Shown here in pieces: positions 15,073-32,746 of a stretch of 42,171 bases of DNA. A program made the translations under genes and the position numbers. Every line of letters starts with the position of its first letter. The first letter of the stretch is position 1. This DNA comes from Campylobacterales bacterium (GTDB lineage Bacteria > Campylobacterota > Campylobacteria > Campylobacterales > QNZT01). Under the pieces are notes generated by a model. It made no database searches. It was not told where the DNA came from and was given only the letters and a program-made list of their open reading frames with translations. The DNA is taken from NCBI GenBank assembly GCA_027068765.1, contig JAMOMC010000054.1, positions 1-42,171 on the forward strand. The letters are read 5' to 3'.

Positions 15073-16570
15073 ATTAAAAAAGACGATGTTGGCAATTGGT
15101 ACTGCATCACTACTTTTAGGAAGTGTATCAACTCTTCAAGCTAAAAGTTGTGATAACAGAACTTTTAATATAAAAATTTCAGAAGATGTAGCAGCATTGG
15201 AGATATTAAATCAATTAAGTGATGAGTGTGGATTTAGTATCATATCTAATGATAAAGTATCAGGTGAACTTTTGGGAGAGAAACTTTCAGGTATAAATAT
15301 TAAAAAGATGTCTCTTGAGGAGATTTTTAATGTTTTAGTAGGAACTAAAGGGTTAGAGTATACATATAGCGGTAACCTTTTAAAAATTTCAGGATTAACA
15401 ACAAAGACATTTAAAGTTAATTATGTAAATACTGAAAGAGCAGGGGTTAGTAATACTGATATCTCTTTAACAGGTGATTCAGCAGCTGCTGGAGATGGCG
15501 ATGGCGGAAAAGGTGGATCACTTTCAACTGGTGCTACTATAACTTCAAATGATAAGTTTAGTTTTTGGGAGAAGATGGAAGCTGAGATAGGTTCAATTTT
15601 AAATGCACCTTCTGACAAATTTGAAGCACCCGCTGCTATTGTAAATAAAGAGGCAGGTTTGATAACTGTAAGTGGTACAGCAGCACAAGTTGATAGAGTT
15701 GGAGCATATATAGAAAATATGATGGATTCTCTTCATAAACAAGTTTTAATAGATGTAAAAATTTTATCAGTTAACCTTGATAATTCAAGACAAACTGGTG
15801 TGAATTGGGGAGAGATATATAAGCTTCAAAATATGAAATTAACATATGAGATGCTAAATACAAATAACCTAGATAAACTCACAGGTGATGATATCACATC
15901 TTTTGGAGATTCAAACCCTAGTGCACATGCTACATTTGTGAGATTCAAAGGAAATACAGGAATTACTGATCTTGTTAAGTTTTTGAAAACTCAAGGTGAT
16001 GTTACTTCAATCTCTAATCCAAAGGTTGTAACTTTAAATAATCAACCAGCTGTATTTAGTTCAGGTGACCAGTTATACTATAAATTATCAGCAAGCTCAA
16101 GACAAACAGGTACAAATGCAGGAACAGAGACTTTTTCAAATGAAGTTGTTAAGTCTGTTTTTGCAGGGGTTCTTCTTGATATTACACCTCAAATCACAGA
16201 TGAGGGAGAGATTATTTTGAAAATTAATCCTTCTATCTCTTCTGTTAAATCACAGGTTAAAACAGATGAATCAGGTGTAAGAAGACTTCCGCCTGATCTT
16301 AGTAAAAAACAGATCTCTTCTGTTGTAAAACTTAGAGATGGTGAGAAGATTATTCTTGGTGGTTTAATTAGCTCTAAGCAGGGAAATAAAACATTTAAAG
16401 TTCCAGTTCTTGGTAATTTGCCAGGTCTTGGGTTTATGTTTAAACAAGACCAAATTTCTGAAATTAGAGAAGAGTTGGTTGTTGTAATTACCCCTTATAT
16501 TATAAATCCAAAAAGAGGGATGAGTGGGAGTATATCGTTAAAAGAGTTAGGTTATACAGGTATAAAGTAA
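15050..16570 (+). CDS. mshL: Secretin, MSHA-type MshL/PilQ family
   Basis: A 506-residue outer-membrane secretin with a signal peptide ending near TLQA (about residue 31). An STN-like domain follows (FNIKISEDVAALEILNQL, about 40-110), then a Gly/Ala/Asp-rich linker (about 140-165), N-domains (LITVSGTAAQVDRVGAYIENM) and the C-terminal gate region with DVTSISNPKVVTLNNQPA, LDITPQITDEGEIIL and VPVLGNLPGLGFMF, the secretin signature. GAGGAAAG precedes the ATG. It would form the ring through which a pilus or pseudopilus passes. Its place between MshK-like and MshN-like genes fits MshL. Confidence 0.9.
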   Translation: MQNLVSSRLKKTMLAIGTASLLLGSVSTLQAKSCDNRTFNIKISEDVAALEILNQLSDECGFSIISNDKVSGELLGEKLSGINIKKMSLEEIFNVLVGTKGLEYTYSGNLLKISGLTTKTFKVNYVNTERAGVSNTDISLTGDSAAAGDGDGGKGGSLSTGATITSNDKFSFWEKMEAEIGSILNAPSDKFEAPAAIVNKEAGLITVSGTAAQVDRVGAYIENMMDSLHKQVLIDVKILSVNLDNSRQTGVNWGEIYKLQNMKLTYEMLNTNNLDKLTGDDITSFGDSNPSAHATFVRFKGNTGITDLVKFLKTQGDVTSISNPKVVTLNNQPAVFSSGDQLYYKLSASSRQTGTNAGTETFSNEVVKSVFAGVLLDITPQITDEGEIILKINPSISSVKSQVKTDESGVRRLPPDLSKKQISSVVKLRDGEKIILGGLISSKQGNKTFKVPVLGNLPGLGFMFKQDQISEIREELVVVITPYIINPKRGMSGSISLKELGYTGIK

Positions 16571-16598
16571 ATATAGAAAATTTTTAAAAGGTAAGATT

Positions 16599-17303
16599 AT
16601 GAGTAGAATAAGCACAATAGTATCACAGCCACAAAAGATTAGTGATGATAAAAGTTTTATGTTTAAAATTTCATTTTTGTTAGCTGCTATTATGGGTTTA
16701 TCTGCATATATAATCTTGCAGAATTTTAATTTGGTTGGCTCATCTTTTACAGGTAGTTCCTCAAATTCTAATCTTGTAACTTTAGAATCAATTGAACGAG
16801 AAATAAACGGAAATATTATAAGCTTGGATGTTGTTGAAGATGATTTTTCTGAACTTGCTTTGATAGATTTGAGTGATATCTCTTTTGAAAAGCAGATACA
16901 AGAGCCGTTAATAGTTGAAAAAAATGTTCAGTCAAAACCTAAAGATGAAGTTGAGAAAATAGCTACTTTAAAAGTTAAAGAGAAAAAAGTTTTTATCTCT
17001 TCCCAAGATGGTAACTCATTATCGTTTATTAAGAAGAAGTTTTATGCTACAAATAACTCTTTGTTCTCTGTTAAGCTTTCACAGAGATTTTTTGATGCAA
17101 AAAAGTATGATAGGGCACTAAAATGGGCTTTAATTTCAAATGAAGTTGACTCAAAAAGTGATAAAAGTTGGATAATGTTTGCAAAGATAAAAGATAAAAT
17201 GGGCAAAAAACAAGATGCGATTAATGCATTAACACAATATCTGAAAAATAACAGTTCAAAAGAGATAGCAAAATTATTAAAAAATTTAAAAGCAAGTGTG
17301 TAG
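16599..17303 (+). CDS. MshN-like TPR membrane protein
   Basis: A 234-residue protein with a cytoplasmic N-terminus of about 25 residues, one membrane helix (MFKISFLLAAIMGLSAYIIL, about 22-41), a polar low-complexity region with acidic patches, and C-terminal TPR-like helices (YDRALKWALISNEVDSKSDKSWIMFAKIKDKMGKKQDAINAL). This is the plan of MshN, which sits between the secretin and ATPase genes in Vibrio MSHA operons. In Vibrio mshM lies between mshL and mshN; here only 28 nt separate the secretin and this gene. Confidence 0.6.
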   Translation: MSRISTIVSQPQKISDDKSFMFKISFLLAAIMGLSAYIILQNFNLVGSSFTGSSSNSNLVTLESIEREINGNIISLDVVEDDFSELALIDLSDISFEKQIQEPLIVEKNVQSKPKDEVEKIATLKVKEKKVFISSQDGNSLSFIKKKFYATNNSLFSVKLSQRFFDAKKYDRALKWALISNEVDSKSDKSWIMFAKIKDKMGKKQDAINALTQYLKNNSSKEIAKLLKNLKASV

Positions 17304-17313
17304 GTAAGAGAAG

Positions 17314-19065
17314 ATGAAAAGAAGAGAATCATTAAGTATAGTTGACTTTTTATTTGACAATAAAATAGTAACACAAGAGATAGCGGACGAGATTGAAGAA
17401 GAGCATCTAGAGATAGGTGATGATATCGGTTCAATACTTTTAAAAAGGAATATTGTAAATAGTGATACACTCACTCTTTTACTTATTGAAGCTGTTAAAA
17501 ATGGTATTATTACACTAAATGGTATTTATAAAAACTTTTCACTAGATATGGATAAATTTATTGAGAAGTTTGCACAAAGTAGAAATTGCGATTATGTGGA
17601 TCTTTATAGTGTTGATGTAAATTATACTATTGGTGCAAAAGCTGGTTATGAGAAGATTTCTAAACTTCATATACTTCCATATAAAGAGGATGATTTAAAT
17701 ATCTATATTGCTGCTAAAGACCCATTTGATATGGGACTTCAAGATGCTCTTCATCGGATATTTAGAAATAAGCTTATAAAAGTAGCTATTGCAAATCCAG
17801 ATCAAATTGAGAAGCATCTTCATAATATTGAAGTTAGTGAGAGTGTAAAAGATCTTATCTCTGAGATTAGGCAAGAGTTTACAGCTTCAACTGGTGCAGA
17901 TAATGAGGAGAGTTCAGGTATTTTAAAATTGATTGAGCTTATTTTAAAAACAGCAATTATTAGTGAGGCTAGTGATATTCATGTTGAGCCTACTGAGACT
18001 AACTGTATTATTAGAGCTAGAATTGATGGTATGTTAAAAGAAATTTTTGTATTTGATAAAGATATATATCCTCCGCTTGGCTCTCGTATTAAGCTTTTGG
18101 CAAATTTAGATATTGCTGAGAAGAGAAAGCCACAAGATGGAAGATTTTCAGCAACTGTTATGGATAAACATTATGATTTTCGGATGTCAACTCTTCCTAT
18201 AATGACTGGTGAATCTATCGTAATGAGAATTTTGGATAAGTCAAAAGTCATGATTAAGCTTGAAGAGTTAGGGATGCATCCTGAAAATTTTAAAAAATTT
18301 AGAAAAGCTATGGATGCACCTTATGGAGTTATATTTGTAACAGGACCAACAGGAAGTGGTAAGTCAACAACTCTGTATGCTGGAATGAATGCGATAAAAA
18401 GTGTTAAAAGAAAGATGATTACAGTTGAAGATCCTGTTGAGTATCAGATGTCACTTTTGCAACAAGTTCAAGTTAATAATAAAGCAAACTTGACATTTGC
18501 AACAGCTTTAAAGTCAATTTTAAGACAAGATCCAGATATCATCATGATTGGTGAGGTTAGAGATAAAGAGACTTTGAAAATCGCTATTGAAGCTTCACTT
18601 ACAGGTCACTTGGTACTTTCAACTTTGCATACAAATGATGCTGTTAGTGCAGTTACTCGTATTATTGATATGGGTGTTGAGGCTTATTTGGTTTCTGGTG
18701 CTTTGGTTGCTATTCAGGCACAGAGGCTTATAAGAAAAGTTTGTCCACACTGTAAGGTGAAAATTATTCTTCCTGAAGATATGTTAAAAGATATTAAAAG
18801 TTTTCTACCTGAAACTTATCAATTTTATAAAGCAAAAGGGTGTGATAAATGTATGCAAACAGGTTACTCAGGAAGAGATATGGTTTCAGAGGTGTTGGTT
18901 GTGGATGATAATATTCAAAGTATGATAGCAAGAGGTATCTCAAAAGAGGAGATTTTAAAGTATGCATTAGAGAATGGTTTTGTAACCATGTTTGAGGATG
19001 CGGCCGTAAGGGCTGCTAGTGGGAAGACAACAATTGAAGAGGTATATAGGGTGGCTAAAGGATGA
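17314..19065 (+). CDS. mshE: Assembly ATPase of the GspE/PilB/MshE family
   Basis: A 583-residue cytoplasmic hexameric ATPase that powers pilus or pseudopilus extension. The N-terminal MshEN-type region is about 1-190. ILKTAIISEASDIHVEP starts the core, followed by Walker A GPTGSGKST (344-352), the Asp box ITVEDPVEYQ, Walker B DIIMIGEVRDKET and the His box LSTLHTNDAVSAVTRI. A tetracysteine zinc site (CPHCK and CDKCMQTGYSGR) is typical of extension ATPases and absent from PilT. It overlaps the GspF-like gene as ATGA. MshE-type N-domains can bind c-di-GMP; I cannot confirm the binding motif by eye. Confidence 0.92.
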   Translation: MKRRESLSIVDFLFDNKIVTQEIADEIEEEHLEIGDDIGSILLKRNIVNSDTLTLLLIEAVKNGIITLNGIYKNFSLDMDKFIEKFAQSRNCDYVDLYSVDVNYTIGAKAGYEKISKLHILPYKEDDLNIYIAAKDPFDMGLQDALHRIFRNKLIKVAIANPDQIEKHLHNIEVSESVKDLISEIRQEFTASTGADNEESSGILKLIELILKTAIISEASDIHVEPTETNCIIRARIDGMLKEIFVFDKDIYPPLGSRIKLLANLDIAEKRKPQDGRFSATVMDKHYDFRMSTLPIMTGESIVMRILDKSKVMIKLEELGMHPENFKKFRKAMDAPYGVIFVTGPTGSGKSTTLYAGMNAIKSVKRKMITVEDPVEYQMSLLQQVQVNNKANLTFATALKSILRQDPDIIMIGEVRDKETLKIAIEASLTGHLVLSTLHTNDAVSAVTRIIDMGVEAYLVSGALVAIQAQRLIRKVCPHCKVKIILPEDMLKDIKSFLPETYQFYKAKGCDKCMQTGYSGRDMVSEVLVVDDNIQSMIARGISKEEILKYALENGFVTMFEDAAVRAASGKTTIEEVYRVAKG

Positions 19066-20306
19066 CTTATTTTGAAGTAAATTACATAATAAAAGGTAGA
19101 AGAGGAAATGAGCTTATAAAAGCAAATACCAGATTAGATGCAATTGCAATTGCAAAAGCGAAAATTACTGGTGGTACTATTTTAAAAGCTTTTGAGGTTT
19201 CAGCTCCGTTAGAGAATAGAGTAGAGGATTTAAAAGAGCAGTTTTTTGGAAAGATATCTAAAAAGAAGGTGAAAGTCGATATTTTAATAGCTGCAATTAG
19301 ACAACTTGCAGTTATGACAAATGCTGGTATCTCAATACACGATAGTATAAAAGAGGTTGGAAAATCAACTGTAGATCCTCAACTTAAAGCTATTTTTGAA
19401 GATGCTGATGAGAGTTTGAACTCAGGAAAAAGTTTAACTGAAGCATTTATGCCATATAAGTATCAAATTGGCGATGTATCTTTGGCGATGATTGAGCTTG
19501 GAGAGAGTACTGGTAACATGTCAGAGTCTTTGACAAAGCTTGCTGAGGTTTTAGAAGAGATGATGGAGAATGCTAAAAAGTTAAAAGCAGCTCTTCGATA
19601 TCCTACAACGGTTATTGTTGCAATTGCTGCTGCATTTACTATTTTGATGATTTTTGTTGTTCCTCAATTTAAAGAGATATTTGAAAAATTAAATGCAGAT
19701 CTTCCAGCTCCTACAAAGCTTTTGCTCTTTTTTGAAAATATAATTAATAATTATGGATTGTATGTACTTGCAGGGCTTATTGGCTTGGTTGTTTATCATA
19801 AATATATGTATAAAACAAATGATACATATAAGCGAAAAGTTGACAAATATATACTCAAAGTTTATCTTATCGGAAATGTTATTTTTTTCGCTTCAATGAG
19901 TAGATTTATGTTGATTTTTACTGAGCTTGTTCGTGCTGGTATTCCAGTTGCAGATGCACTTGATACCGCTTTAATGACAGTTGATAATGAAGAGATAAAA
20001 GATAAACTCTCGTCCGTTAAGTATTCTGTTGAGAGAGGTTCAAATTTAACAGATGCTTTTAAAGAAACAGGACTCTATGAGGGGATGCTCATACAGATGA
20101 TAAAAGCTGGTGAGCAAGGTGGAGCTTTAGATAAGATGCTTGAAAAGGTGAGTGACTATTTTAAATCTAGATTTAATGAAATAATTGATAATCTTTCAGC
20201 ATATATTGAGCCTATTTTGATTGGTTTTATTGCTGGTATGGTTTTGATGTTAGCACTTGGAATATTTTTACCTATGTGGGATATGGCATCTGCTGTTAAA
20301 AACTAA
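19062..20306 (+). CDS. mshG: Inner-membrane platform protein GspF/PilC/MshG family
   Basis: A 414-residue polytopic protein with the duplicated GspF cytoplasmic domain: repeat one near DILIAAIRQLAVMTNAGISIHDSI and VSLAMIELGESTGNMSESL, repeat two near FASMSRFMLIFTELVRAGIPVADAL and MLIQMIKAGEQGGALDKML. Membrane helices lie at about 180-200, 225-245 and 385-405. It is the rotor or platform on which the MshE-type ATPase acts. It ends the operon; a terminator follows and no prepilin genes are adjacent. Confidence 0.92.
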   Translation: MTYFEVNYIIKGRRGNELIKANTRLDAIAIAKAKITGGTILKAFEVSAPLENRVEDLKEQFFGKISKKKVKVDILIAAIRQLAVMTNAGISIHDSIKEVGKSTVDPQLKAIFEDADESLNSGKSLTEAFMPYKYQIGDVSLAMIELGESTGNMSESLTKLAEVLEEMMENAKKLKAALRYPTTVIVAIAAAFTILMIFVVPQFKEIFEKLNADLPAPTKLLLFFENIINNYGLYVLAGLIGLVVYHKYMYKTNDTYKRKVDKYILKVYLIGNVIFFASMSRFMLIFTELVRAGIPVADALDTALMTVDNEEIKDKLSSVKYSVERGSNLTDAFKETGLYEGMLIQMIKAGEQGGALDKMLEKVSDYFKSRFNEIIDNLSAYIEPILIGFIAGMVLMLALGIFLPMWDMASAVKN

Positions 20307-20369: not shown

Positions 20370-23138
20370 CTAAAAGAGTCTAGTGTAAGTTAAATTTACT
20401 CCAAATTTTTCATCACCTAGATTGTTGAGCCTGCTTAGATAACCAAGCTCTAATCTATACATGTCATTTTTAGAAAATGAACCTTTAAAGCCTGTTGAAG
20501 CGTATGTATAGACTCTATCCCCCACATTGCTATAAAGTCCAGATATATTAAAATATGGCTGAAAAGTTGTTCCTATCTTGTATGAATTGTTCGCATAGTT
20601 AAATCCTATTCCGATATTTTGCGAATTTTGTTCTATTAGTTTTGTATTTTTTTCAGAAGTTGGAAGTACTTTTTTTATACTATTTGTATTGTTGCTTTCA
20701 TTGAAATTTCCTAGAGTATAAAAGAGTTCAAAACCCATATTTGGATTTACATTAAAATCATAATCGAAGCTAAATCGTCCTCTTAATCCCGAGCCAATCT
20801 TCTCATTTTCAAAAGTAGAATAGCTGTGGTATTCACCTAAAAATATGAGAGTTTTATTTGAGCTTATTTTATAATTTGTCTCGATAAAAGCACTATTTTT
20901 TTTACCACTTAAAAGTAAAATTGTACTTGCATCTTCGATTTTAGCATTTGTTTTGGCATTAAATCTTAGATATAGATTATCATTTACTCTTTTATCAGCA
21001 TTCAAGATAAATCCTATAGTACTCTTTTTAGCATCTCTATAAAATAAACTTAATTCAATACTTGCGTTGTAGATGTGTTTTCTTATTCCAACTTGAGCAG
21101 ATATATCAGCTGTTTCAAATATATTTGCTATCTCAATTTTTTTATTTTTATATGTAGATTTTTTAAAATCTACTAAAAATCCTAATCCATTAGAGATATA
21201 GTAAAAACCATTTAAATTAAAACTTTGGCTATTTAATATTCCTTGTTTTGATTTTTTAAAATTTATCTCAATTTTATCTCCATAATTTTCATTAAGAGTG
21301 CTTAGCTTACTGATTAGGTATTGGTTTTTTTTATTGTTTAAAAGAGCAGTTTTTGTTAAATTTATGGCTTTGTGCATCTGGTCACTATTTTCTGCACTTT
21401 CTATTTTCATATATTTAGGTGTTGTATATGAAAATCTTTTCATTAGTGCTTTTTTTGTATCTGTTTTACCTCTTAATCTTGCAATTTCCATTGCAGTTAT
21501 TGGGTTTTTATCTATCATACTTTCTTGTATTTTATAAGCTTTGTTATATTTTTTATACTTTAGAGCATGAGCAATTTGTAGTTGTTTATAATCTTTTGGA
21601 GTCAATTTATCTTTCGATATTTTTAGCAGGTTTAAAAACTTTTTTGATGAGATAATATCTAAAGATGCTTCTAAATATTGTCTTAAAAATTTTTTATCTT
21701 TTTTTAGACTTGGGTTGTTTTTGGCTTGTTTACTTAAGATTTTTGAGATTTTTTTAAGTTCAGCTTTTCTTTTTTTCTCTTCTCCTTGAGAGGCTAAAAT
21801 AGATGCATATAAAAATCTAAGTTCAAGGTTTTTAGGTTCATTTTTTATAGATTTTTTAAGATATTTTATTGCAATATCTGGTTTTTGAAGAACTTGATAA
21901 GCTGCTGCTAGAGGATGGTATAAATTAGGAGATATATTGTTGCTTTTTTCTATTTTTTTTATTTCAAAACTAAGTGCTTTGTACTCAAAATTGTCAATTA
22001 AATACCATAAAGTTTGACTTATAGTTTCAGGAGAACCAGATTTGAGTAAAATAGTGTTTTTTATGCTTTTTCTAGCTTCTTTATCTCTTTTAAAATGTTT
22101 ATCAATACTGGCTTTTATAAGCCAAAATCTTGATTTATCTTTTAAAATATTCATACTTTTCTCATCTTTTAATATTTTGTTAATCTCAAAATCGATATCT
22201 CTAAACTCTTTTTTTTCAATTTTTCTTTGGGCATAATCTAAAAAAAACTTACTATTGTTATGTTGTTTTAAAGCTAAAAGGGACATATCTCTTATGATTG
22301 TTGAATTTGAATTTTTATAAACTTGTGCTATTCTTTGATAATCAACTAACCTTGCAGTTTTACTCTCATAAAGCATAAGTGATCCATAAACTCCACTTTC
22401 ATACTGGTGTAAATACCACCCAAGATCACTAATTTTTTCAAAAAATTTTCTATTTTTTGCTAAAACTTTAATTCTATCTTTTGCATCAATAAGTGTTAGA
22501 TATGATCTATCTAAATCTTTTTTTACAAAATAATACTGAGAAATAGCTAATATAACTTTTGCATCTTTTATTTTCATTCTCTCTAATTTTTTTATAATTT
22601 TTTTAGCTTTGTTGAGTTCACCTGTTTTTAGATAAATCGATAAAATATCACTAAGGTATCTGTTTTGGTTATTTTTTGCATAGAGTTTTCTTAATATCTT
22701 AATACTCTCTTTTGGTTTTCCTACTTTATCATAAATGTCATGCATTAACTCTATATCTTGATCACTATAGTTACTTTGTTGAAGCTTTTTTATTATAAAT
22801 GGAAGAGCTTTTTCATATTGATAACTTGCAAGTAAACGCTTTATTATCTCATCTGCGATTAGAGGGTCGTTGTTGGTTTTATAGATATTGGTTAAATACT
22901 TTATAGACTCTTTGTGCCTTCCTGTCCATAAAGTTACCTCACTCATCTTTTGATTCCAAAAATATGAATTAGGCTCTTTTTCTAATGCACTTTTTGCAAC
23001 TTTGTAAGCATTTTCTAAGTCTTTTGAAAATATAAATGAGTCGTACATGAGAGTAAACTGTTCAGATTCTTCATTTTTTGCATAACAGAAGGTAGATAGA
23101 TATAATAAAAAATAAATTAATAAAATTACTTTTCTCAT
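20370..23138 (-). CDS. pelB: PelB C-terminal protein: secreted TPR plus outer-membrane beta-barrel
   Basis: A 922-residue protein with its own Sec signal peptide (MRKVILLIYFLLYLSTFCYA), then about 580 residues of TPR-like helical repeats, and a C-terminal beta-barrel of about 300 residues with alternating strands ending in aromatic ...NLTYTRLF, the usual outer-membrane signature. This matches the periplasmic TPR and porin parts of P. aeruginosa PelB, which exports Pel and steers PelA. In P. aeruginosa PelB is one chain of about 1,190 residues anchored in the inner membrane; here the anchor is in the separate upstream gene, joined by an ATGA overlap. The independent signal peptide shows this is a true split and not a frameshift. 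It is the last gene of the operon. Confidence 0.8.
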   Translation of the reverse strand: MRKVILLIYFLLYLSTFCYAKNEESEQFTLMYDSFIFSKDLENAYKVAKSALEKEPNSYFWNQKMSEVTLWTGRHKESIKYLTNIYKTNNDPLIADEIIKRLLASYQYEKALPFIIKKLQQSNYSDQDIELMHDIYDKVGKPKESIKILRKLYAKNNQNRYLSDILSIYLKTGELNKAKKIIKKLERMKIKDAKVILAISQYYFVKKDLDRSYLTLIDAKDRIKVLAKNRKFFEKISDLGWYLHQYESGVYGSLMLYESKTARLVDYQRIAQVYKNSNSTIIRDMSLLALKQHNNSKFFLDYAQRKIEKKEFRDIDFEINKILKDEKSMNILKDKSRFWLIKASIDKHFKRDKEARKSIKNTILLKSGSPETISQTLWYLIDNFEYKALSFEIKKIEKSNNISPNLYHPLAAAYQVLQKPDIAIKYLKKSIKNEPKNLELRFLYASILASQGEEKKRKAELKKISKILSKQAKNNPSLKKDKKFLRQYLEASLDIISSKKFLNLLKISKDKLTPKDYKQLQIAHALKYKKYNKAYKIQESMIDKNPITAMEIARLRGKTDTKKALMKRFSYTTPKYMKIESAENSDQMHKAINLTKTALLNNKKNQYLISKLSTLNENYGDKIEINFKKSKQGILNSQSFNLNGFYYISNGLGFLVDFKKSTYKNKKIEIANIFETADISAQVGIRKHIYNASIELSLFYRDAKKSTIGFILNADKRVNDNLYLRFNAKTNAKIEDASTILLLSGKKNSAFIETNYKISSNKTLIFLGEYHSYSTFENEKIGSGLRGRFSFDYDFNVNPNMGFELFYTLGNFNESNNTNSIKKVLPTSEKNTKLIEQNSQNIGIGFNYANNSYKIGTTFQPYFNISGLYSNVGDRVYTYASTGFKGSFSKNDMYRLELGYLSRLNNLGDEKFGVNLTYTRLF

Positions 23139-24184
23139 TTTATCCCTTTTTGTTTTATGATTTTTAAAGATAAATTTTTAGCAAAATCAGCCTCTCCAGC
23201 CTCTAGATATAGTTTTAATAATCTACTTACCATTTTAGGATCTTTAAGATATGAATCTTCATAAACTTTTGCAAATTTTGCAGCACTTTTAGAGTTATTG
23301 TTGGCTCTGTAGATATCTATCGTTTTTATAAAAATTTCTTTTTTCTTTTTTAAATTTTTCTCATCTTTGTAAAGCTGTTTATAGATAACAATAGCTTTAA
23401 TATTTCTGTTTTTAGATATATATAAATTTGCTAAAGTAGCTTTATCCAAGTTCAACTCTGTGGCTAAATCCTCCAAATTTGTATCTACAGCTATTAGCGG
23501 AATTAGTGTATTTAACCACAGTTTACTCTCATTTATATCCTCTTTTACTAATACTTTTAGAGCATAAATATCTTCTTGTATTTCATTTAATTCACTTGCA
23601 AGGTAGTGATAATTTTTAAACCATTTTATTCTTTCTTGCTCTTTTACAAAATCTAAAATATTTTTATTAAATCTTAAAGCACTCTTTTTATCACCACTTG
23701 TAAGGGCTGCATGGTATAGAGTTTTACTTGTGTTTTTATCTCTATTTTTAGAGTAACTTATAGATTTTAAAAGTTGTGAGTTCTCATCTTTTATTTTTTT
23801 TGAAACTAACTCATTTTTCTCCTCTTCTAATCTTGTGTTGTTGATTTGAATATGCAGTAAAATCGCATCTTCGGCTATTTTTTTATCTGGATTTTCATCT
23901 AAAATTTTTAGTAGATTGATTGCTAAATCATATTTTTTTTGTTGGTATAGAGTTTTTGCCATTACTAAGATAAGCTCTCTATCTTCAGGATTTAATTTCA
24001 TCAAATTTTGAAGATAGATTGCGGTTAAATCAAAATTACTCTTCTCTGCTAATACCTGTTTTTGTAAACTCTCTTTTGGGTATAGTAGAAAAAGTATGCC
24101 TAAAAATGAGAAAAAGAGTAGAAAAATCTCTAAATTTGTGATAACTAATTTTCTTTTTTTAGTTTTTGCAATTTGGTGTAACAT
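23135..24184 (-). CDS. PelB N-terminal protein: inner-membrane-anchored TPR protein
   Basis: A 349-residue protein with a short positive head (AKTKKRKLV), one membrane helix (about 16-35, LEIFLLFFSFLGILFLLYP) and then TPR-like repeats facing the periplasm (YLQNLMKLNPEDRELILVMAKTLYQQKKYDLAINLL; ANLYISKNRNIKAIVIYKQLY). This is the plan of the N-terminal part of PelB, including its inner-membrane anchor. It starts at 24184, overlapping the pelA end by 26 nt, with AAGGAAG just upstream, and overlaps the barrel gene as ATGA. It resembles PelB by architecture and position; sequence homology would need profile comparison. Confidence 0.65.
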   Translation of the reverse strand: MLHQIAKTKKRKLVITNLEIFLLFFSFLGILFLLYPKESLQKQVLAEKSNFDLTAIYLQNLMKLNPEDRELILVMAKTLYQQKKYDLAINLLKILDENPDKKIAEDAILLHIQINNTRLEEEKNELVSKKIKDENSQLLKSISYSKNRDKNTSKTLYHAALTSGDKKSALRFNKNILDFVKEQERIKWFKNYHYLASELNEIQEDIYALKVLVKEDINESKLWLNTLIPLIAVDTNLEDLATELNLDKATLANLYISKNRNIKAIVIYKQLYKDEKNLKKKKEIFIKTIDIYRANNNSKSAAKFAKVYEDSYLKDPKMVSRLLKLYLEAGEADFAKNLSLKIIKQKGIK

Positions 24185-26909
24185 AAACTTCCTTTACACT
24201 TTTAAACTTCAATGTAACTATACTCTCTTTTTTTACAAAATTCTTTTTTGATGTTTTAACATTTAGTTCACATCCTTTTTTTAATTTATAAACAAAAGTT
24301 AAAGGCATGGTAGATTTTAGATGCAGAGTATTTTTGTTTTTTGATATAACCCTTGCATTTGATTCTATAAGAAAGTTTTCATTTTTACTCTTTTTTTCTA
24401 AAGTTAAAAATTTACTTTTTTTTGAATCTAAATGAACATATGTATAATTTTTTTCATCCTTGTAACCTGCTATCCCAAAACTCTTATTTAATCTAGGGTA
24501 TCCTAATGTTCTTGGAACTCTTAGTGTTCTTAGGTGGTTAAAACCTCTTAAAAGCCAAGTGTTGTTCTCTTTAGCTAAAGATGCATCATAAAAATCTGTT
24601 ACTTTTGCAGGATATGTACTTGTAAATATATGCATAACATCTTGCTTATTCGCCCAATCATAAATCTCTTTTAGTGCAACATAAGATGCTCTTTTAGATG
24701 CAGAATAGAAGTGATAGTAGATATTAATTGGTTTTAATCTTCTTGGTTTGTTGGTTAAGTTAAAAGTCTGTATTACCTTTTTAAATCCCCAAAATGGACC
24801 TTGCCAATCATTTGTATAGACATTTTCATTTTGTTGACCTGTATAAATCTGATAATAATCTCCAAGTTTTAAACCAAGAGGTTGGATTAGAGATAGCCAT
24901 GGGCGGTCATTTGTTATTGTTGTATCTCCTCCGTTGATATTTATAATATTATTTGCATATGTATACTCTAATACATCTTCACTAGGTGAGCAGTCTCCCG
25001 TCCAGAAGATTGTATTTATTTTTGGTCTGTTTTTTGGTATTAATCTATCGTTGATATAATCCATTGAGCCACCTATCTCTCTATCTGTTGAGTATGTGTA
25101 GTTTTTTATTTCGATATTGTAATTTTTCTTATTTGGGTTTTTTTCAAGTTTTTGCCAGTAAAAAGGGTGGGTAAAAGTGTGAGTTGCTCCCTCAATATGA
25201 GGGAGTTTAAACATCTCTTTTGCGGCTTTTTCTAGCCTTTTTGATAGTTTTGGATAAAGTCCGTGAGGAGCTGTTTCTGATTCAACAATTGAGACTGATT
25301 GGGGGAAAGTGTATGGCTTTATAAATTTTTCAAGTATTAGCTCAATTGAAAATTGTTTTGGATTGTTTTCAACTCTGTTCATTGAGCCATCTCCATCAAT
25401 ATGAATAAACATAAGCCTTTTCCCACTCTCTGTTGTGGTATCAGCAATTGGAATAGAGGCAAGATTTAAAGATTTAGAAAATAGCTTAAATGGATCAACA
25501 ATCCATAAGTTATTGTCATTAAAATAGCTAGTTGTTATATCATTTCGTATATACCCTCCCCATGGCATAAGAGCTGCTAGTGTAGATGTCTGATTTTTAC
25601 TATTTTTATAACTAAAGAGAATTTTGCCACCTTTTGGTGTAATTGTATACTGGTGATGATGTATATAAGGTCTAATTTCAAAGTTAAACATATCATCTTG
25701 TTTTATAATTTTAATTTTGCTATTTGGTTTTGCAAAATTTTTCTCTATATTTAGCCCTAATTTTGTAGAAAGAGGGTGGTTTAATGCCAGTGCACCATTT
25801 CCTATAAAAAGTACTTTTGTATTTTGCAAAATTGCTATTTGTATCCATTTTGCAAATCTATCATAATCTTTATACTCTTCCTCTAACCAAACTATAATCC
25901 CTGCATATCTACTACTTAAGTCTCCTTTTGGTAGAGGAGTATTTATATCGTGAAGAGTTGGGATATAGCCTAAATACTCTAAAGGCATTGAAGCTAAACG
26001 GTGGGCATAACTATAATTAATCATTTTATCTTCTATTTTGTCTCTATCGTAGATTATTAAAACTTCTCTTTTTATAGCATTTTTACTTCCTTTTCCAATA
26101 TCTGTTAACTCTTTTGTAGTTACATAAGGGATAAAGCCTTTTTTTTGAAGTGCTTTTACAGCTTGAAGTTGTCTCTTTTTTTCATTTTTTGGCAAATAAT
26201 CTAATGCAATAATGGGAATATTATAACTTTTTATTTTTTTAAGCCATATATCTAGCCACTCTCTATCTCTATTAGAGACTTTTTTATATTTCATAGTAGA
26301 GGCATTAATTCCATAATAGTATGACTCAAATAAAAATACATCTACATAAGGATGAATTTCATCTATAATCTCAAATCCACGATTTATAATGAGTTTTGAA
26401 TTTGGGTACTTTTGCTTGAATTTTTTTATAAATTTTATTAGACCAAGTCGAAGTTTTTCTTTTTCTTTTTTACTAACTTTAGCAAGTTGATAAGAGTCCA
26501 TTGTGTCAAAAAAGAAGTTTTTAACCCCTTTTTTATAAAGCTCTCCTATAACTCTATCTAATAAAAAATTTTGATAATTTGGGTTTTTGATATCTAAAAT
26601 TAGACTTCCCCAAGCACTGTTTTTGCCAATTATCCATCTTTTATCGATTTCTTTTGCAAAAGGTCTGCTTTTTAACATCTCATTTACACTTACATAAGCA
26701 TAGATATTATCTCTATAAGTTTTAAATCCACTTGTATAAACATTGATAAAATCAGGCTCTAGTATGATATAGTCGTGTATACCAACAAGTGAATATGGGA
26801 TATTGTCTCCATAATAGACTATAGCACTTTTTGATGTTAAAGATGCATTTAAAGAGCTAAAGAGAGCAAACAAGAGTAAAACTATCTTAGCGAAGTAGAA
26901 ATGTTTCAT
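24159..26909 (-). CDS. pelA: PelA, bifunctional Pel hydrolase and deacetylase
   Basis: A periplasmic enzyme of 916 residues from the ATG at 26909; an upstream TTG two codons earlier is open, but AAAGGA sits 8 nt before this ATG. A signal peptide (MKHFYFAKIVLLLFALFSSLNA) is followed by a GH166 alpha-galactosaminidase-like domain (about 30-270, FFFDTMDSY and FLFESYYYG carrying the likely acids), a flavodoxin-like region, and a CE4-like deacetylase with the metal motif HIDGDGSMNR (about 503-512) and GATHTFTHPF. The two His of that motif are spaced four apart, like D528/H600/H604 of P. aeruginosa PelA. A C-terminal beta domain follows. It partially de-N-acetylates the GalNAc polymer and can cut it. 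It overlaps pelG at its start. Confidence 0.93.
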   Translation of the reverse strand: MKHFYFAKIVLLLFALFSSLNASLTSKSAIVYYGDNIPYSLVGIHDYIILEPDFINVYTSGFKTYRDNIYAYVSVNEMLKSRPFAKEIDKRWIIGKNSAWGSLILDIKNPNYQNFLLDRVIGELYKKGVKNFFFDTMDSYQLAKVSKKEKEKLRLGLIKFIKKFKQKYPNSKLIINRGFEIIDEIHPYVDVFLFESYYYGINASTMKYKKVSNRDREWLDIWLKKIKSYNIPIIALDYLPKNEKKRQLQAVKALQKKGFIPYVTTKELTDIGKGSKNAIKREVLIIYDRDKIEDKMINYSYAHRLASMPLEYLGYIPTLHDINTPLPKGDLSSRYAGIIVWLEEEYKDYDRFAKWIQIAILQNTKVLFIGNGALALNHPLSTKLGLNIEKNFAKPNSKIKIIKQDDMFNFEIRPYIHHHQYTITPKGGKILFSYKNSKNQTSTLAALMPWGGYIRNDITTSYFNDNNLWIVDPFKLFSKSLNLASIPIADTTTESGKRLMFIHIDGDGSMNRVENNPKQFSIELILEKFIKPYTFPQSVSIVESETAPHGLYPKLSKRLEKAAKEMFKLPHIEGATHTFTHPFYWQKLEKNPNKKNYNIEIKNYTYSTDREIGGSMDYINDRLIPKNRPKINTIFWTGDCSPSEDVLEYTYANNIININGGDTTITNDRPWLSLIQPLGLKLGDYYQIYTGQQNENVYTNDWQGPFWGFKKVIQTFNLTNKPRRLKPINIYYHFYSASKRASYVALKEIYDWANKQDVMHIFTSTYPAKVTDFYDASLAKENNTWLLRGFNHLRTLRVPRTLGYPRLNKSFGIAGYKDEKNYTYVHLDSKKSKFLTLEKKSKNENFLIESNARVISKNKNTLHLKSTMPLTFVYKLKKGCELNVKTSKKNFVKKESIVTLKFKSVKEVYVTPNCKN

Positions 26910-28260
26910 AAACAATATCCTTTAAAGTTTTTTTAATCACCAATAAGCTACAAGTAAACACAATAAGCAAAGAGAGAGCATACCCATATCCAAAAAAGTA
27001 TGGGCCTAAATGTATAGAGTATAGTGTGAGAAGACCATTTAGTAAAAAAAACATAAGTGACAACCACATAGTTGCACGACGACGATCTAGATAAAATAGT
27101 ATAGCAAGCACTGACATAAATCCAAGTTGTAGTTGAGCTCCTATCATGTCTATATGAAAAAGATTTGTATAAAGAAGAGGTATATTTAAAAAGGAAAATA
27201 TTTGTGGAGTGTAGAGATAAATCATGATAAATAAAATACTCTGTATATATAATACCTCTCTAATAGCTTGGCGAATTACATCAATCATCCCATCTTTATA
27301 ACTCTCTATCGTCTTTAGAGTTCCTCCCTCTTTAACAGCATCAAAAAAGAGTTCATACTTTTGTGAAAAGTATGCTTCAAGTCTAAAGAAAAACAGAGCC
27401 ATACCAGGAACAATTGTCAAATATGCCATAAAAATAGGAACATCATAAACGATAGAACCGTGTAATTTACCAAGAATTTCACTTCCAGTTAAAGGATGAT
27501 ACCAGAAGATAAATTTGTCTATCCAAACACCCAAACTATAAAACAAACCAGAAAAACCTAAAAACCAATAAAAGTTTTTTCGTCTAAAAAAATTAAATGA
27601 TATAAGTGTATGTGATGGATAATTTATAGCTATAAATGATGTCAAGATAATCAAAAGAGCCAAATTACCAAATAAAAATATAGCCATAATTTTCTCAACA
27701 CTATCTCCAAAATAGTATGAAAAAAGTACAATCAGAGTATAAATAATAAAATATGCTATAAAAGTTCCACGATAAAATTTTAAACTTGAGGCTAAAATAT
27801 TTGCAAGCCAAATACTTGTCATTATGATAAAAATATATATAACCAAAAGTATAAAAATTAAAGATTGACCCTCAAATATATAAAATGCTAAAGGTGTTAA
27901 AAATAAAATACCAATAACATTTGTAACAAGAAGTGCCCCAAAAAAAGATGGCAAAACAAGATCTTCTCTATTTTCATAAATCTTATCTGCAACATAACGG
28001 GTAAATGGTAACTGTATAAAACCTGTCAACATAATGCTTGAAGCAAAAGCAAAAGCATAAGTTATGATAAGTTGATATGCAACAACTTTTCCATCTTCAC
28101 TCTCTAAAGAGTTGTTTAAAAAACTTATAATCAATATAGCTATTATAGAGCTAACCCAAGGACCTGAACTAAGAAGAGATGCATATGTGTAAGACTTTGC
28201 TAATGAAGTAAGAGAGTTATCTTTTCTCATCTTTCTAAGCTTAAATCCAATTCCAGCCAT
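26887..28260 (-). CDS. pelG: PelG, polytopic membrane protein of the MOP flippase superfamily
   Basis: A 457-residue protein with about 12 hydrophobic segments, beginning MAGIGFKLRKMRKDNSLTSLAKSY, the conserved PelG N-terminus. It belongs with Wzx/MATE-type transporters and forms the inner-membrane Pel synthase complex with PelD, PelE and PelF, carrying the nascent polymer across the membrane. The start overlaps the pelF stop as TAATG. Length and hydropathy match the family (456 residues in P. aeruginosa). Confidence 0.93.
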   Translation of the reverse strand: MAGIGFKLRKMRKDNSLTSLAKSYTYASLLSSGPWVSSIIAILIISFLNNSLESEDGKVVAYQLIITYAFAFASSIMLTGFIQLPFTRYVADKIYENREDLVLPSFFGALLVTNVIGILFLTPLAFYIFEGQSLIFILLVIYIFIIMTSIWLANILASSLKFYRGTFIAYFIIYTLIVLFSYYFGDSVEKIMAIFLFGNLALLIILTSFIAINYPSHTLISFNFFRRKNFYWFLGFSGLFYSLGVWIDKFIFWYHPLTGSEILGKLHGSIVYDVPIFMAYLTIVPGMALFFFRLEAYFSQKYELFFDAVKEGGTLKTIESYKDGMIDVIRQAIREVLYIQSILFIMIYLYTPQIFSFLNIPLLYTNLFHIDMIGAQLQLGFMSVLAILFYLDRRRATMWLSLMFFLLNGLLTLYSIHLGPYFFGYGYALSLLIVFTCSLLVIKKTLKDIVYETFLLR

Positions 28261-29762
28261 TATATAAACTTCTTGTATAGATTTTTATAAGTTTGTAAAA
28301 ACAGATCTTCTTGATAATAGTTTTTTACTCTCAAAAGTGCACTTTTTTGAGCTTTCTTCCAAAGCTTATCATCATTTAAAAAAAGAACATAATTTTTAGC
28401 AAGTGCTACTTCATCTGCTATAGTTGTAATTTCACCAGCTTTTCCTATCTTTATATCATCTTTATCTAAAGCCCCAAAAATAAGATCTTTACAACTTCCA
28501 ACATCTGTACTAATACAAGGAAGACCACTTGCAAAACCCTCAAGTATAACAAGAGGCATCCCCTCACTTATGGAAGTTAGAGTTAAAAGTCCAGATTTTG
28601 GTAATATATCATCTATCTTTTGAAAGCCTAAAAATGAGATGTTTTTTTCTAAATTAAGAGATTTTACAAGAGAGTTACACTCACTTGCATACTCTTTTTC
28701 TTCATCAGTTGCACCTACAACCCATCCCTCAATCTCAGGGATGCTTTTTTTGGCAATTGCGATTGCACGGATAAAAGTTTTTATATCTTTTATAGATACA
28801 ACTCGTCCAATAAGTGTAACTACTTTAGGAGTTTTAATATCTCTTTTTGCTATAAGAGAGTTAAAGCGAACCATATCGACCCCATTTGGAATTACGATAG
28901 TTTTTTCTCTTTTAGCTCCATACTCAATTTGTATATCTCTAGCCCCTGGATATAAAGATATAACAAGTTTGGCTTTATCGTAACTTAAATGTCCAATCTT
29001 TTCAAAAAAATTAACCCACATTTTTTTGATATAATTTAACTCTTTTGGCTCTTCTTCTAAGAGGGCAGGGGCTAGATAAGATATCCATTTTGCAGAGAGT
29101 AAATCAATTTTTCTCTCTCTTGTATAGATGCCGTGTTCAGTTAAAATAAAAGGGGTATTACTGTTGTTTGAAGATAGATATGCTAAAAATCCTGCATATC
29201 CTGTTGATGGGCTATGTATTAGTTTTGATTTTGGTAGTTTTTTCACAATAGATGATAGTTTCCAAATAGGTGTATGGATATTTCTAAGTGTCCAAAAGTA
29301 GTCTATAAAAGGAATGTCAGGAGAGTTTTTTTTATAAATTTCAGACATAAACCTCCAAGATTCTTTTGAGTATAAAAAATCATCAATAGAGATATTTTTT
29401 CTGAAAAAATTAATATTTTGCATCTGTTTTGGTATATTGAACTCTGATGAGTTTATATTTTGATAAAATTCTCGTATGATTTGAAACGATTTTTTATCAC
29501 CTTCTATTTTTTTTGGTATATGCTTTTTTTCATCAAAGAGATAGTGAACTTCAAGATGTTTTAAATTCTTAGGTAATTCATAAAGTACTTCTCCATAATC
29601 TTCAGCTTTAGAGCCTATAAAAACAATTCCAAAAGTAAACTCTTTTAATCCTACCATCAATTGATGCAGCCATGATGAGACACCACCTCTAACATATGGA
29701 TAAGTTCCCTCAGCCATCAGTATTATGTCGACTTGCTTGCTTTTTAGTATGATTTTACTCAT
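28260..29762 (-). CDS. pelF: PelF, GT4 glycosyltransferase of Pel synthesis
   Basis: A cytoplasmic GT4 enzyme of 500 residues from the ATG at 29762, which overlaps the pelE stop as ATGA; a start 12 nt upstream is possible but less likely. ILMAEGTYPYVRGGVSSWLH is the PelF N-terminal signature with the glycine-rich donor-side loop. PFILTEHGIYTRERKIDL is also typical. The C-terminal GT-B domain has TLIGRVVSIKDIKTFIRA and EGMPLVILEGFASGLPCIST, the ExnE-type motif of GT4. It polymerises UDP-GalNAc (and UDP-GalN-type units) into the Pel chain. Confidence 0.95.
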   Translation of the reverse strand: MSKIILKSKQVDIILMAEGTYPYVRGGVSSWLHQLMVGLKEFTFGIVFIGSKAEDYGEVLYELPKNLKHLEVHYLFDEKKHIPKKIEGDKKSFQIIREFYQNINSSEFNIPKQMQNINFFRKNISIDDFLYSKESWRFMSEIYKKNSPDIPFIDYFWTLRNIHTPIWKLSSIVKKLPKSKLIHSPSTGYAGFLAYLSSNNSNTPFILTEHGIYTRERKIDLLSAKWISYLAPALLEEEPKELNYIKKMWVNFFEKIGHLSYDKAKLVISLYPGARDIQIEYGAKREKTIVIPNGVDMVRFNSLIAKRDIKTPKVVTLIGRVVSIKDIKTFIRAIAIAKKSIPEIEGWVVGATDEEKEYASECNSLVKSLNLEKNISFLGFQKIDDILPKSGLLTLTSISEGMPLVILEGFASGLPCISTDVGSCKDLIFGALDKDDIKIGKAGEITTIADEVALAKNYVLFLNDDKLWKKAQKSALLRVKNYYQEDLFLQTYKNLYKKFI

Positions 29763-30700
29763 GTTAGAACCCACTGCTTATGAATTGGAGCAGTCATGAT
29801 AGAGGTCTCAATAGTTTTTATCTCTTTTAAGAGGGGTTTTATCTCCAAGTAAGCTCTTTTTTCATAGGCAATCTCTGCAAGATAGAAGTTTACAATACTC
29901 TTTTTTACTCCATGAGAGATTGCAAGTTTAAGAGATTTTGTAGCATTATTATAATCTTTTTTATAGAGTTGAACTTTTCCAAGAAGAAGGTTTTGCATCC
30001 CCTTTTCTTCTTCGTTTTTCAAAGCTATATTTAAAAAATGTTCTGTATTTTCGATCAATAAACCTTCGCTCTCAAGGTTACTAAAACCATAGTAGATAAA
30101 ATCCCAATTAAGATGAGCTAACTCACCTGCGATGATGGATCTTTTTTTTTCATCTTTTTCGCTTTTAAACTCTTCAAGCTTAGATGCAATTTTGGAGCTT
30201 AACTCATTTTCAAAAGAGTTTAAAAGTGAAAAACTAAAGAGTCTCACTTCATTATCTTTGTCACTGAGTAATTTTTTTATAATTGGAAAATTTTTTTTAT
30301 CGGGGTTGTTTGATAAAAATACTAAGCTTTTCATTTTTTGTGCAGAGCTATTGGTATTGTTTGATATATTTGTTACAGTTGCTTCTCCAAACACTCTATT
30401 TACAATTGGAAATTTATTGTTTAAAAATTCATCTATATTAAATTTTTTTATCTTTTTTAAATATCTTTTATCTTCTGTATAAGCTAAAATGGATGATAGA
30501 AAAATTGTAATTATGTAAGAGAGTATAGGGAGAAAAACATTAAAAGCAAATATTACTAAAAAAAGCTTATATATTTGGATATTGTAACGATTTTTAAGTA
30601 CTAAGGTGGCAAATATAGAGATTATAGTTGAGATAAAGAGATGTCCATAGATAATTTTATTAGATTCAAAAGCTAAAAAAAGTGGTATAAAATCTTGCAT
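29759..30700 (-). CDS. pelE: PelE, inner-membrane TPR scaffold protein
   Basis: A 313-residue protein with hydrophobic segments in the first 75 residues (about 4-13, 19-36 and 44-73) and a helical cytoplasmic region with TPR-like repeats (FLNIALKNEEEKGMQNLLLGKVQLYKKDYNNATKSLKLAISHG). This is the PelE plan; in P. aeruginosa PelE joins PelD to the PelF-PelG synthase. Its ATG directly follows the pelD TAG with no gap and its TGA overlaps the pelF ATG. Identification rests on architecture and order. Confidence 0.8.
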   Translation of the reverse strand: MQDFIPLFLAFESNKIIYGHLFISTIISIFATLVLKNRYNIQIYKLFLVIFAFNVFLPILSYIITIFLSSILAYTEDKRYLKKIKKFNIDEFLNNKFPIVNRVFGEATVTNISNNTNSSAQKMKSLVFLSNNPDKKNFPIIKKLLSDKDNEVRLFSFSLLNSFENELSSKIASKLEEFKSEKDEKKRSIIAGELAHLNWDFIYYGFSNLESEGLLIENTEHFLNIALKNEEEKGMQNLLLGKVQLYKKDYNNATKSLKLAISHGVKKSIVNFYLAEIAYEKRAYLEIKPLLKEIKTIETSIMTAPIHKQWVLT

Positions 30701-31918
30701 CTAAGTCTCTTTTATATATCTATAAATTAGTTTTTTCTGTTCTATGTCAAAAGACATATATGAAAAATCATCATTTTTTAATTTGCTTTTTTTTGAAACA
30801 TTTTCAATGATATTTAAAGTTGCATCTTTTGGTGAGAGTGGAAGTAAGATTATGATTGTGTTTTTATAATCACCTAAAGTAAAATACTTATCTAAACCTC
30901 TAAGCTCCTTTTCTAATAAGTAGATGAGTTTTTCCTGAATAAAGTCATCTTTTGCTTTTATAACTATCACAGAAGATGCTGTTTTATATCTCTTTTGTAA
31001 ATTTAATGCAAAGTTATAAGAGTGTGTAAAAAGTGCATCGCTATTTAGTCTATCAAATCCTAACTCTTTTATTTCTTTCCATAATTTTTGTTGATCGATA
31101 AAATATGAAAAAATTATTGCAATATTTATGATAGTATTTTGGTTGAATTCTAAAAATGGCATATTTTCAATTGCCAATAGGTTAGTTATAATATCATCTT
31201 CATTTTTTATAGGTATTATTGCTATATACAGGTTGTTTTTCATATCCTCTACTTGATTTATATAGCTTGCTTCACCACTTTGTAGAGTTTTTTCTACTAA
31301 AAGATCTTTAAGATTTAATGTTTTGTGTTTTGAAGTTGATGCTAGAGTGTTAAATGTATCATTTTTTAATTCTGCTATAGCTACACCTTGAAGATGAAAC
31401 TCTTTTGAAATTAAATTTAAAAAATCCTCATAATTTAACTCATCTTTGAAGTAGAGACTCTCTAGTTCTTTTATAGATGTTCTTAAACTTTGTGGTTTTA
31501 AAGCATAACTTTTTTCTAAAATATTGTGAGAGATTTTTAGAGCATAAAATGCATGGCTTAACTCTTTTAATCTTTTTTTTGTAAAAGCTGATTCATGGAG
31601 AGATTTTTCGTTTTTATTATACCAGTAGTGATAAAATTGTCCAAGTATCAAAACAAGCAGAAGATGTGATAAAAATAGAGATAACATATCTTGATGATAA
31701 TCTAAATAAAACATAGATCCAACTAAAACTAAAGAGACTACACCATGCTTTGAACCATTAAAAAGTGTAATAACTATCAAAAGAATTGATAAAAATGGAA
31801 TATCACTATGTAGGATTAATGGGTCTTTAGGAAAGAAGTAAATTCCTATCGATATATAAACTAAGGTAATTACTATCGTTTCGATATAAGAAAAAATATA
31901 TTTTGAAATTGCCCACAA
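30701..31918 (-). CDS. pelD: PelD, c-di-GMP receptor of the Pel synthase complex
   Basis: A 405-residue protein with four membrane helices in the first 100 residues, a GAF-like domain (about 150-275) and a degenerate GGDEF domain (about 285-405). The inhibitory-site motif RxxD is preserved as R340-G-L-D343, and the GGDEF position is decayed to LGDYK (348-352), so the domain should bind c-di-GMP but not make it, as shown for P. aeruginosa PelD. The start is TTG at 31918; no better start exists upstream. It leads the Pel operon and faces the GH114 gene across 60 bp. Post-translational control of Pel by c-di-GMP is inferred. Confidence 0.85.
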   Translation of the reverse strand: MWAISKYIFSYIETIVITLVYISIGIYFFPKDPLILHSDIPFLSILLIVITLFNGSKHGVVSLVLVGSMFYLDYHQDMLSLFLSHLLLVLILGQFYHYWYNKNEKSLHESAFTKKRLKELSHAFYALKISHNILEKSYALKPQSLRTSIKELESLYFKDELNYEDFLNLISKEFHLQGVAIAELKNDTFNTLASTSKHKTLNLKDLLVEKTLQSGEASYINQVEDMKNNLYIAIIPIKNEDDIITNLLAIENMPFLEFNQNTIINIAIIFSYFIDQQKLWKEIKELGFDRLNSDALFTHSYNFALNLQKRYKTASSVIVIKAKDDFIQEKLIYLLEKELRGLDKYFTLGDYKNTIIILLPLSPKDATLNIIENVSKKSKLKNDDFSYMSFDIEQKKLIYRYIKET

Positions 31919-31978
31919 ACTTTCTAACCTTATTTTTATGATATAGTATAACTAAACTTAACTAAGGAAATGTAACTT
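31919..31978. promoter_or_regulatory. Divergent promoter region between pelD and the GH114 gene
   Basis: Two -10 boxes overlap face to face. On the plus strand TGATATAGT (31939-31947) is an extended -10 followed by AAGGAA (31964-31969) before the TTG start. On the minus strand TATACT (31950-31945) would serve pelD. The overlap means a polymerase on one promoter should exclude the other, or one regulator could control both. Confidence 0.5.
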
Positions 31979-32746
31979 TTGAAAATATTTTTACTAATTA
32001 TGTTTACTTTATCCTGCTATGGAGATAAAAATGAATGGTATAAACCAAGTGTAGATGCAACTTGGCATTGGCAATTAAAGGGAGATATTGATTTAAATAA
32101 AGATGTAGATGTTTATGTGGTTGATCTTTTTGATACAAAACTTTGGCAAATTAAACATCTTCAAAAAAGAGAAAAAAAAGTTATTGCCTATTTTTCAGCT
32201 GGCTCATATGAAGATTGGAGAGTAGATGCAAAATCATTTAAAAAATCTATTATTGGCAAAAAAATGTCTGGTTGGGATGAAAGATGGTTAGATATAAGAT
32301 CTAAAAACATAAGAGATATTATGAAAAGGCGTTTAGATTTTGCTAAAAAAAAGGGTTTTGATGGTGTTGAGATCGATAATGTTGATGGGTATATAAATGA
32401 GACGGGATTTGCTCTAACATATGATAATCAGTTAAAATATAATATTTTTCTATCACAAGAAGCTCATAAAAGAGGACTTGCAATTGCACTTAAAAACGAT
32501 GTTGATCAGATTGTAGAGCTTGAGCCATATTTTGATTTTCATATAAATGAGGAGTGTTTTGAATATAATGAGTGTGGAAAACTTATGCCATTTATAAGAG
32601 CTAAAAAACCTGTATTTCATGCAGAATATAATAGAAAAAATAGAGATAAAATTTGTAAAGAGGGTAATAAAAGAGGTTTTCAGACACTAATCTTACCACT
32701 TGAGCTAGATGGCTCTTTTAAAATAGATTGTAAATTATTAAAATAA
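31979..32746 (+). CDS. GH114 family exported glycoside hydrolase (endo-alpha-1,4-polygalactosaminidase-like)
   Basis: A 255-residue TIM-barrel hydrolase with an N-terminal export signal (MKIFLLIMFTLSCYG); Cys13 might be lipidated, but TLSC is a poor lipobox. WHWQLKGDIDLNKDVDVYVVDLFD, VIAYFSAGSYEDWR, GFDGVEIDNVDGY (127-138, with the likely catalytic Asp) and INEECFEY (189-196, with the likely Glu) are GH114 motifs. Characterised GH114 members cut alpha-1,4-linked galactosamine polymers. Lying divergent from pelD, it probably trims or degrades the Pel made by the neighbouring operon; the substrate is inferred. The TTG start is supported by AAGGAA 9 nt upstream and by the signal peptide. Confidence 0.85.
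   Translation: MKIFLLIMFTLSCYGDKNEWYKPSVDATWHWQLKGDIDLNKDVDVYVVDLFDTKLWQIKHLQKREKKVIAYFSAGSYEDWRVDAKSFKKSIIGKKMSGWDERWLDIRSKNIRDIMKRRLDFAKKKGFDGVEIDNVDGYINETGFALTYDNQLKYNIFLSQEAHKRGLAIALKNDVDQIVELEPYFDFHINEECFEYNECGKLMPFIRAKKPVFHAEYNRKNRDKICKEGNKRGFQTLILPLELDGSFKIDCKLLK

Follow-up and report, generated by a model that had tools for sequence, protein, structure and literature searches.

A single PelB chain has been proposed to connect the two membranes, and the ring protein PelC has been described as essential in Pseudomonas. In P. aeruginosa, PelB (PA3063; 9h80 and 5wft) is a single chain of 1193 aa with an inner-membrane helix, TPRs, PelA-binding TPRs, a helical region and a 16-strand barrel, and it is accompanied by a PelC dodecamer. 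Residues 1–36 form the inner-membrane helix, residues 332–436 and beyond bind PelA, and in the model for this organism TPRs 1–9 receive the polymer from PelDEFG and TPRs 9–15 hold PelA (PMC12022489). The need for PelC was called puzzling in the 2025 PelBC paper (PMC12141448). Division of pelB is itself already known, as the legend to Fig. 5 iii of a 2020 operon survey names a 'pelB fission' (Bundalovic-Torma 2020, PMC7112194). Within the incomplete coverage of our literature search, we found nothing on the break point or the spread of such a split, and no Gram-negative pel operon in which PelB occurs without PelC. The operon analysed in the present study has the same parts as P. aeruginosa PelB, but on two chains broken at approximately residue 280 and with no PelC.

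The window, i.e. the whole stretch of 42,171 nt that was analysed, comes from a Campylobacterales bacterium and carries a pel operon with the gene order pelD-E-F-G-A-BN-BC on the minus strand (Table 1). Thus pelA, D, E, F and G were all found together with pelB, which is represented by the last two genes, pelB-N and pelB-C. The encoded PelA matched a GH114-type domain (E 1.3e-13). The first gene beyond pelB-C lies on the plus strand and ends at 20306; judged by eye from the ORF sequences, it closes a type IV pilus/MSHA-like set (secretin, ATPase and inner-membrane protein; 12490–20306, plus strand) that stands tail-to-tail with the pel operon. At the other end, a second divergent gene beside pelD (32785–33651, plus strand) encodes a lipoprotein resembling by eye its GH114 neighbour at 31979–32746, and GH114-like genes adjoin pelD or pelC also in the loci L195, L197 and L198.

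Table 1. Features of the pel operon in the window
Feature	Position	Strand	Description
pelB-C	20370..23138	-	922 aa, ATG start; signal peptide, TPRs and 16-strand outer-membrane barrel; corresponds to P. aeruginosa PelB from ~residue 285 to the end
ATGA stop/start overlap, pelB-N/pelB-C	23135..23138	-	Plus strand reads TCAT
pelB-N	23135..24184	-	349 aa, ATG start; uncleaved TM helix at residues ~17–34 and TPR solenoid; corresponds to P. aeruginosa PelB to ~residue 280
pelA	24159..26915	-	GH114/GH166-type hydrolase and deacetylase motifs DGDG (507) and HTFTH (579); 26-nt overlap with pelB-N
pelG	26887..28260	-	PF16933 E 4e-123
pelF	28260..29774	-	NF038011 E 2.8e-184
pelE	29759..30700	-	
pelD	30701..31918	-	c-di-GMP receptor-like; PF16963 22 bits (below the 27-bit cut-off); RGLD = RxxD motif, residue 340
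60-bp gap, pelD to divergent GH114 gene	31919..31978	.	pelC site in sister locus L197 (~475 bp); pelC absent here
GH114 (endo-alpha-1,4-polygalactosaminidase-type) gene, divergent, flanking the pel operon	31979..32746	+	E 2.4e-84

A first-pass annotation of this DNA had proposed that PelB is divided here into an inner-membrane TPR protein of 349 residues and a secreted TPR-barrel protein of 922 residues. Both ORFs and their ATGA overlap were confirmed, and the summed length without the signal peptide (349 + 922 residues, giving ~1250 aa) is close to the 1193 aa of P. aeruginosa PelB. PelB-N has one hydrophobic helix (residues 17–34 in the AF2 model) followed by LYPKES without a small-residue signal-peptidase site; a Y/F-P-K/E motif directly after the helix is conserved, again with no cleavage site, and the helices of the model continue to residue 346 (mean pLDDT 89.5). 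The N-terminus of P. aeruginosa PelB shows the same arrangement of an uncleaved hydrophobic helix (PMC12141448). PelB-C starts with a signal peptide, for which a cleavage site between STFCYA and KNE was assigned by eye using the −3/−1 rule. Its AF2 model comprised ~36 helices of the TPR type and a barrel of exactly 16 strands, the sequence matched Pfam PF24604 'PelB, C-terminal beta barrel' above the cut-off (E 1.6e-17), and Foldseek gave 9h80 PelBC as the best match (TM 0.78 over the target). These features suggest that PelB-N would be retained in the inner membrane and PelB-C secreted. Instead of a single polypeptide spanning the periplasm, the window thus has two genes with separate export signals.

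Profiles were then built from 27 PelB-N and 26 PelB-C proteins and compared with 177,635 sequences of solved structures in the PDB. The top match of the PelB-N profile was P. aeruginosa PelB (residues 49–99 and 170–278, E 1.4e-11), with the next unrelated TPR protein about seven orders of magnitude behind (1.2e-4), and the top match of the PelB-C profile was the adjoining, non-overlapping remainder of the same protein (residues 285–1177, E 9.4e-97). The PelB-C profile also matched the crystal structure of the PelA-binding TPRs, 5wft, at profile positions 77–181; a region homologous in sequence to these TPRs (P. aeruginosa 332–436) is therefore present in PelB-C, where PelA binding is predicted. 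The 349-residue sequence alone, without a profile, found the N-termini of fused PelBs, one from Campylobacterota at E 2.4e-31 and many from Pseudomonadota at 1e-7 to 1e-3, so that the similarity to the PelB N-terminus on which the proposed division hinged is present. Among the fused PelBs tested, all 23 had their match to the PelB-N profile at the N-terminus, in most cases with almost the full length of the profile; in 22 this match ended before the start of the PelB-C profile, the exception being L155 with weak overlapping ends. The adjoining profile matches and the collinearity with fused PelBs therefore identify the window pair as PelB cut at approximately residue 280 and support the division proposed in the first-pass annotation.

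The survey of other Campylobacterota covered 397 genomes, 21 of which had a strong PelG match. The pel loci of 15 of these shared the break site of the window, two had PelB in three pieces, two were split at a second site and two were fused (L025, 1213 aa; L039, 1204 aa). In the three-piece loci (L029, 361+548+573 aa; L035, 350+526+565 aa), consecutive TM-TPR, SP-TPR and SP-barrel genes (L029:9294-13737 and L035:5074-9403) combine both break points. The second-site loci L071 (723+413 aa) and L072 (702+455 aa), of family f5, have PelB split just before the barrel; the barrel chain carries its own signal peptide, and pelC is kept upstream of pelD. Among named GTDB loci, the split at the window site was found also in Geobacteraceae and other Desulfuromonadia-type genomes, Moraxellaceae, Agitococcus, Alloalcanivorax and another gammaproteobacterium; in the betaproteobacterial and Pseudomonas pel loci examined, PelB was fused. 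On a PelF+PelG tree of 99 loci, unrooted and with some weak deep forks, the state changed at least six times, counted without a direction of fission or fusion, and in one same-genus pair, L201 (split) and L204 (fused), the junctions differ essentially by the signal peptide. The spacing of the two genes in 43 split loci was a 4-nt overlap in 23, a 1-nt overlap in eight, within ±20 nt in a further eight and a gap of 52–92 nt in the remaining four.

Two adjacent, ordered ORFs adding up to one PelB might also be expected if a sequencing frame error or a recent mutation had interrupted a single gene. However, the downstream ORF has a signal peptide that is absent from fused PelBs, and breaks at this position were found in 43 loci, which come from independent assemblies and several phyla; on these grounds the frame-error reading was rejected and retains practically no probability, and the split was taken to be functional, as first proposed, and conserved. 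It is also very improbable that PelB-C is the whole of PelB and that PelB-N, as a LapB- or YfgM-like membrane TPR protein unrelated to it, lies in the operon by chance. TPR similarity is generic, PelB-N gave only weak generic TPR matches in Pfam/NCBIfam, and Foldseek of its model returned generic TPR solenoids only, but its similarity to fused-PelB N-termini is specific and collinear, and no separate PelB-N gene was seen in loci with fused pelB. The further claim that the two halves must meet through TPR contacts was not borne out as a necessity, as fused PelBs bridge the same boundary by a linker of ~10–140 residues, ~10–15 residues in Campylobacterota and 25–140 residues of variable sequence in Pseudomonadota. 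The break site is thus a boundary between modules, at which a short linker, a long linker or no covalent link at all is tolerated, and stacking of the halves through their TPRs is plausible in the window but not forced. Given the frequent long linkers, these sequences do not appear to require the TPRs to continue as a rigid rail from one half to the other. Contact could instead run through PelA or the polymer, and it is possible, though less likely than not, that the halves do not touch at all and are joined only through PelA, PelG/PelE or the polymer. The long variable linkers of many fused PelBs and the docking of PelA on PelB-C only (PMC12022489) point in this direction, but the short linkers of the Campylobacterota proteins, in which the repeats follow directly, fit stacking.

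The first-pass account of the operon was right about the split of PelB. It missed that such splits are common and had been described before, and that pelC is absent from both the operon and the genome. A PelC profile detected PelC beside pelD in 19 of the 21 Campylobacterota pel genomes, at about E 1e-30 or better, and in whole-genome searches did not find it in the window genome (99.98% complete) or in G047. Within the family of the window genome, PelC was present in six of ten pel-bearing genomes, again at about E 1e-30 or better; neither the general profile (A2) nor a Campylobacterota-only profile (A9) found it in G000, G412, G398 and G047, of which G398 and G412 are draft genomes and G412 is 81% complete. 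With the latter profile, the best E in these four was 0.018, compared with 1e-55 or better in positive controls. The window and its three relatives without pelC form one supported clade, and its sister L094 (the record matching L197) has PelC, so that one loss suffices. The 60 bp that separate pelD from the divergent GH114 gene in the window mark the site that pelC occupies in L197. This PelC-less clade is the previously unreported part of our finding.

Sequence alignment of the barrels showed that PelBs accompanied by PelC share conserved residues in three turns on the periplasmic side (YPD, YTRxWRP and DHL), and these positions map to turns 10/11, 12/13 and 14/15 of the window AF2 model. The YTR arginine aligns with R1122 of P. 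aeruginosa PelB, one of the arginines that contact PelC (PMC12141448). PelC-less barrels keep 0–1 of five conserved turn residues, whereas 72 of the 77 others keep three or more. A link between this loss and the absence of PelC is suggestive only, since the three sequences concerned are related and some residues on the extracellular side are missing too. That the clade has a working exporter, in which a split PelB does without the lipoprotein ring and the barrel is remodelled at the PelC-docking periplasmic turns, we consider an evenly balanced proposition.

Other readings of the PelC result were also weighed. Divergence of PelC beyond both profiles in these draft genomes retains a small probability. 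It is unlikely that the window genome encodes a PelC that escaped recognition, or that another lipoprotein, such as the LpoB-like one on contig C154, has replaced it: this one lipoprotein scored E 0.003 with the general PelC profile, but it is a clear LpoB (PF13036, E 1.4e-28), gave 0.33 with the Campylobacterota profile, in the same search in which true PelCs gave 1e-55 or better, and was rejected as PelC. Moreover, PelC is missing from the three related genomes too, and nothing occupies its place next to pelD. Slightly less likely still is that the pel cluster of this clade is non-functional and decaying after the loss of PelC. With PF24604, the window barrel reaches only 68 bits (95 for G047 and 105–152 for most others), and it has lost conserved residues, but the window and L198 have all seven genes intact, all pel genes present in L195 and L093 are open, the clade spans several genera, and the catalytic and ligand motifs of PelA and PelD are kept in the window.

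Several other variants were noted among the pel loci. The net charge of the PelB TPR part spans about −20 to +64 among pel loci, an observation that concerns window pelB-C, L039, L205, L204, L115, L202 and L114. Several Campylobacterota clades, including that of the window, are strongly basic although Pel is cationic in P. aeruginosa; AT-rich composition explains only part of this, L114 and L202 having ~52% GC. For the window the value is +57, the usual range being about −20 to +15. A tie between PelC loss and a basic TPR part was rejected because several PelC-bearing clades are equally basic. In 11 loci (L120, L111, L102, L096, L099, L108, L104, L030, L029, L035 and L072), the signal peptide of PelB-C or of the barrel chain is followed by ~80 additional residues with the pattern CYTVQL...TVRCGC, which are absent in the window; only one of 13 N-termini matched PF05036 (E 0.003), and these residues are possibly SPOR-like and could anchor the outer-membrane half to peptidoglycan. 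A second type of pel locus in the window family (L114, L202, L115 and L205; e.g. the genes L114:7771-8649 and 12826-15486) has a short GH114-only gene at the pelA position, although in L205 no such gene was found there. In L114 and L202, a large ORF after pelB has a deacetylase-like HxxxH motif, as if PelA were divided too, and the idea that some loci of the family lack a deacetylase was therefore not supported for these two. Sulfurimonas-type loci have a second full-length PelA-like gene (~900 aa) directly 3′ of pelB (L024, L026, L028, L032, L037, L096, L101, L104, L105 and L111). In an alphaproteobacterial pel operon on a plasmid of Azospirillum thermophilum, two TPR genes (L045:2102-5158 and 5244-6824; 1018 and 526 aa) occupy the pelB position, and neither matches the barrel model used.

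Taken together, the most probable reading, which we hold with high confidence as a whole, is that of a complete Pel-type exopolysaccharide operon in which an inner-membrane PelB-N and an outer-membrane PelB-C act as a split PelB exporter working without PelC. In this operon, PelB-N would be anchored by its uncleaved N-terminal helix and hold the first TPR repeats as the polymer-receiving unit, and PelB-C, secreted by its own signal peptide, would provide the PelA-binding TPRs and the 16-strand barrel as the PelA-docking and export unit at the outer membrane. The break at approximately residue 280 falls between the TPR units: judged by position, about six TPRs, the first of the array, stay with the inner-membrane half, and every PelA-binding TPR belongs to the outer-membrane half. 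The two chains together would replace the single periplasm-spanning PelB, the inner-membrane receiving unit presumably passing the chain to the modify-and-export unit; pelB-N and pelB-C may be translationally coupled and therefore probably made at ~1:1. In the window lineage, PelB-C most likely exports without PelC.

Covalent continuity was repeatedly gained or lost at the same fixed boundary, which shows that the membrane bridge need not be one chain. The boundary marks two functional modules, one receiving the polymer at the inner membrane and the other docking PelA and exporting at the outer membrane. The PelC-less clade provides natural material for asking what the PelC ring is for, and PelC-independent export, if true, would make the PelC requirement testable by comparison of sister lineages.

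Separate chains for a TPR scaffold and an outer-membrane barrel are also found in alginate export (AlgK/AlgE), where AlgK is an outer-membrane lipoprotein. In the window, by contrast, the break lies inside the TPR array and the N-terminal part is predicted to be anchored in the inner membrane. The second-site split of L071 and L072 is the closer analogue; AlgX–AlgK–AlgE has been given as the alginate counterpart (PMC12022489). The 'pelB fission' named for aquatic thermophiles likewise has pelB as separate genes in the pel operon, and to what that legend names (PMC7112194) the present work adds the position of the break, its recurrence and the loss of PelC. BcsC and PgaA also combine TPRs and a 16-strand barrel without a PelC-like ring (PMC12141448), but each is a single secreted chain with no inner-membrane-anchored TPR half, unlike the PelB of the window.
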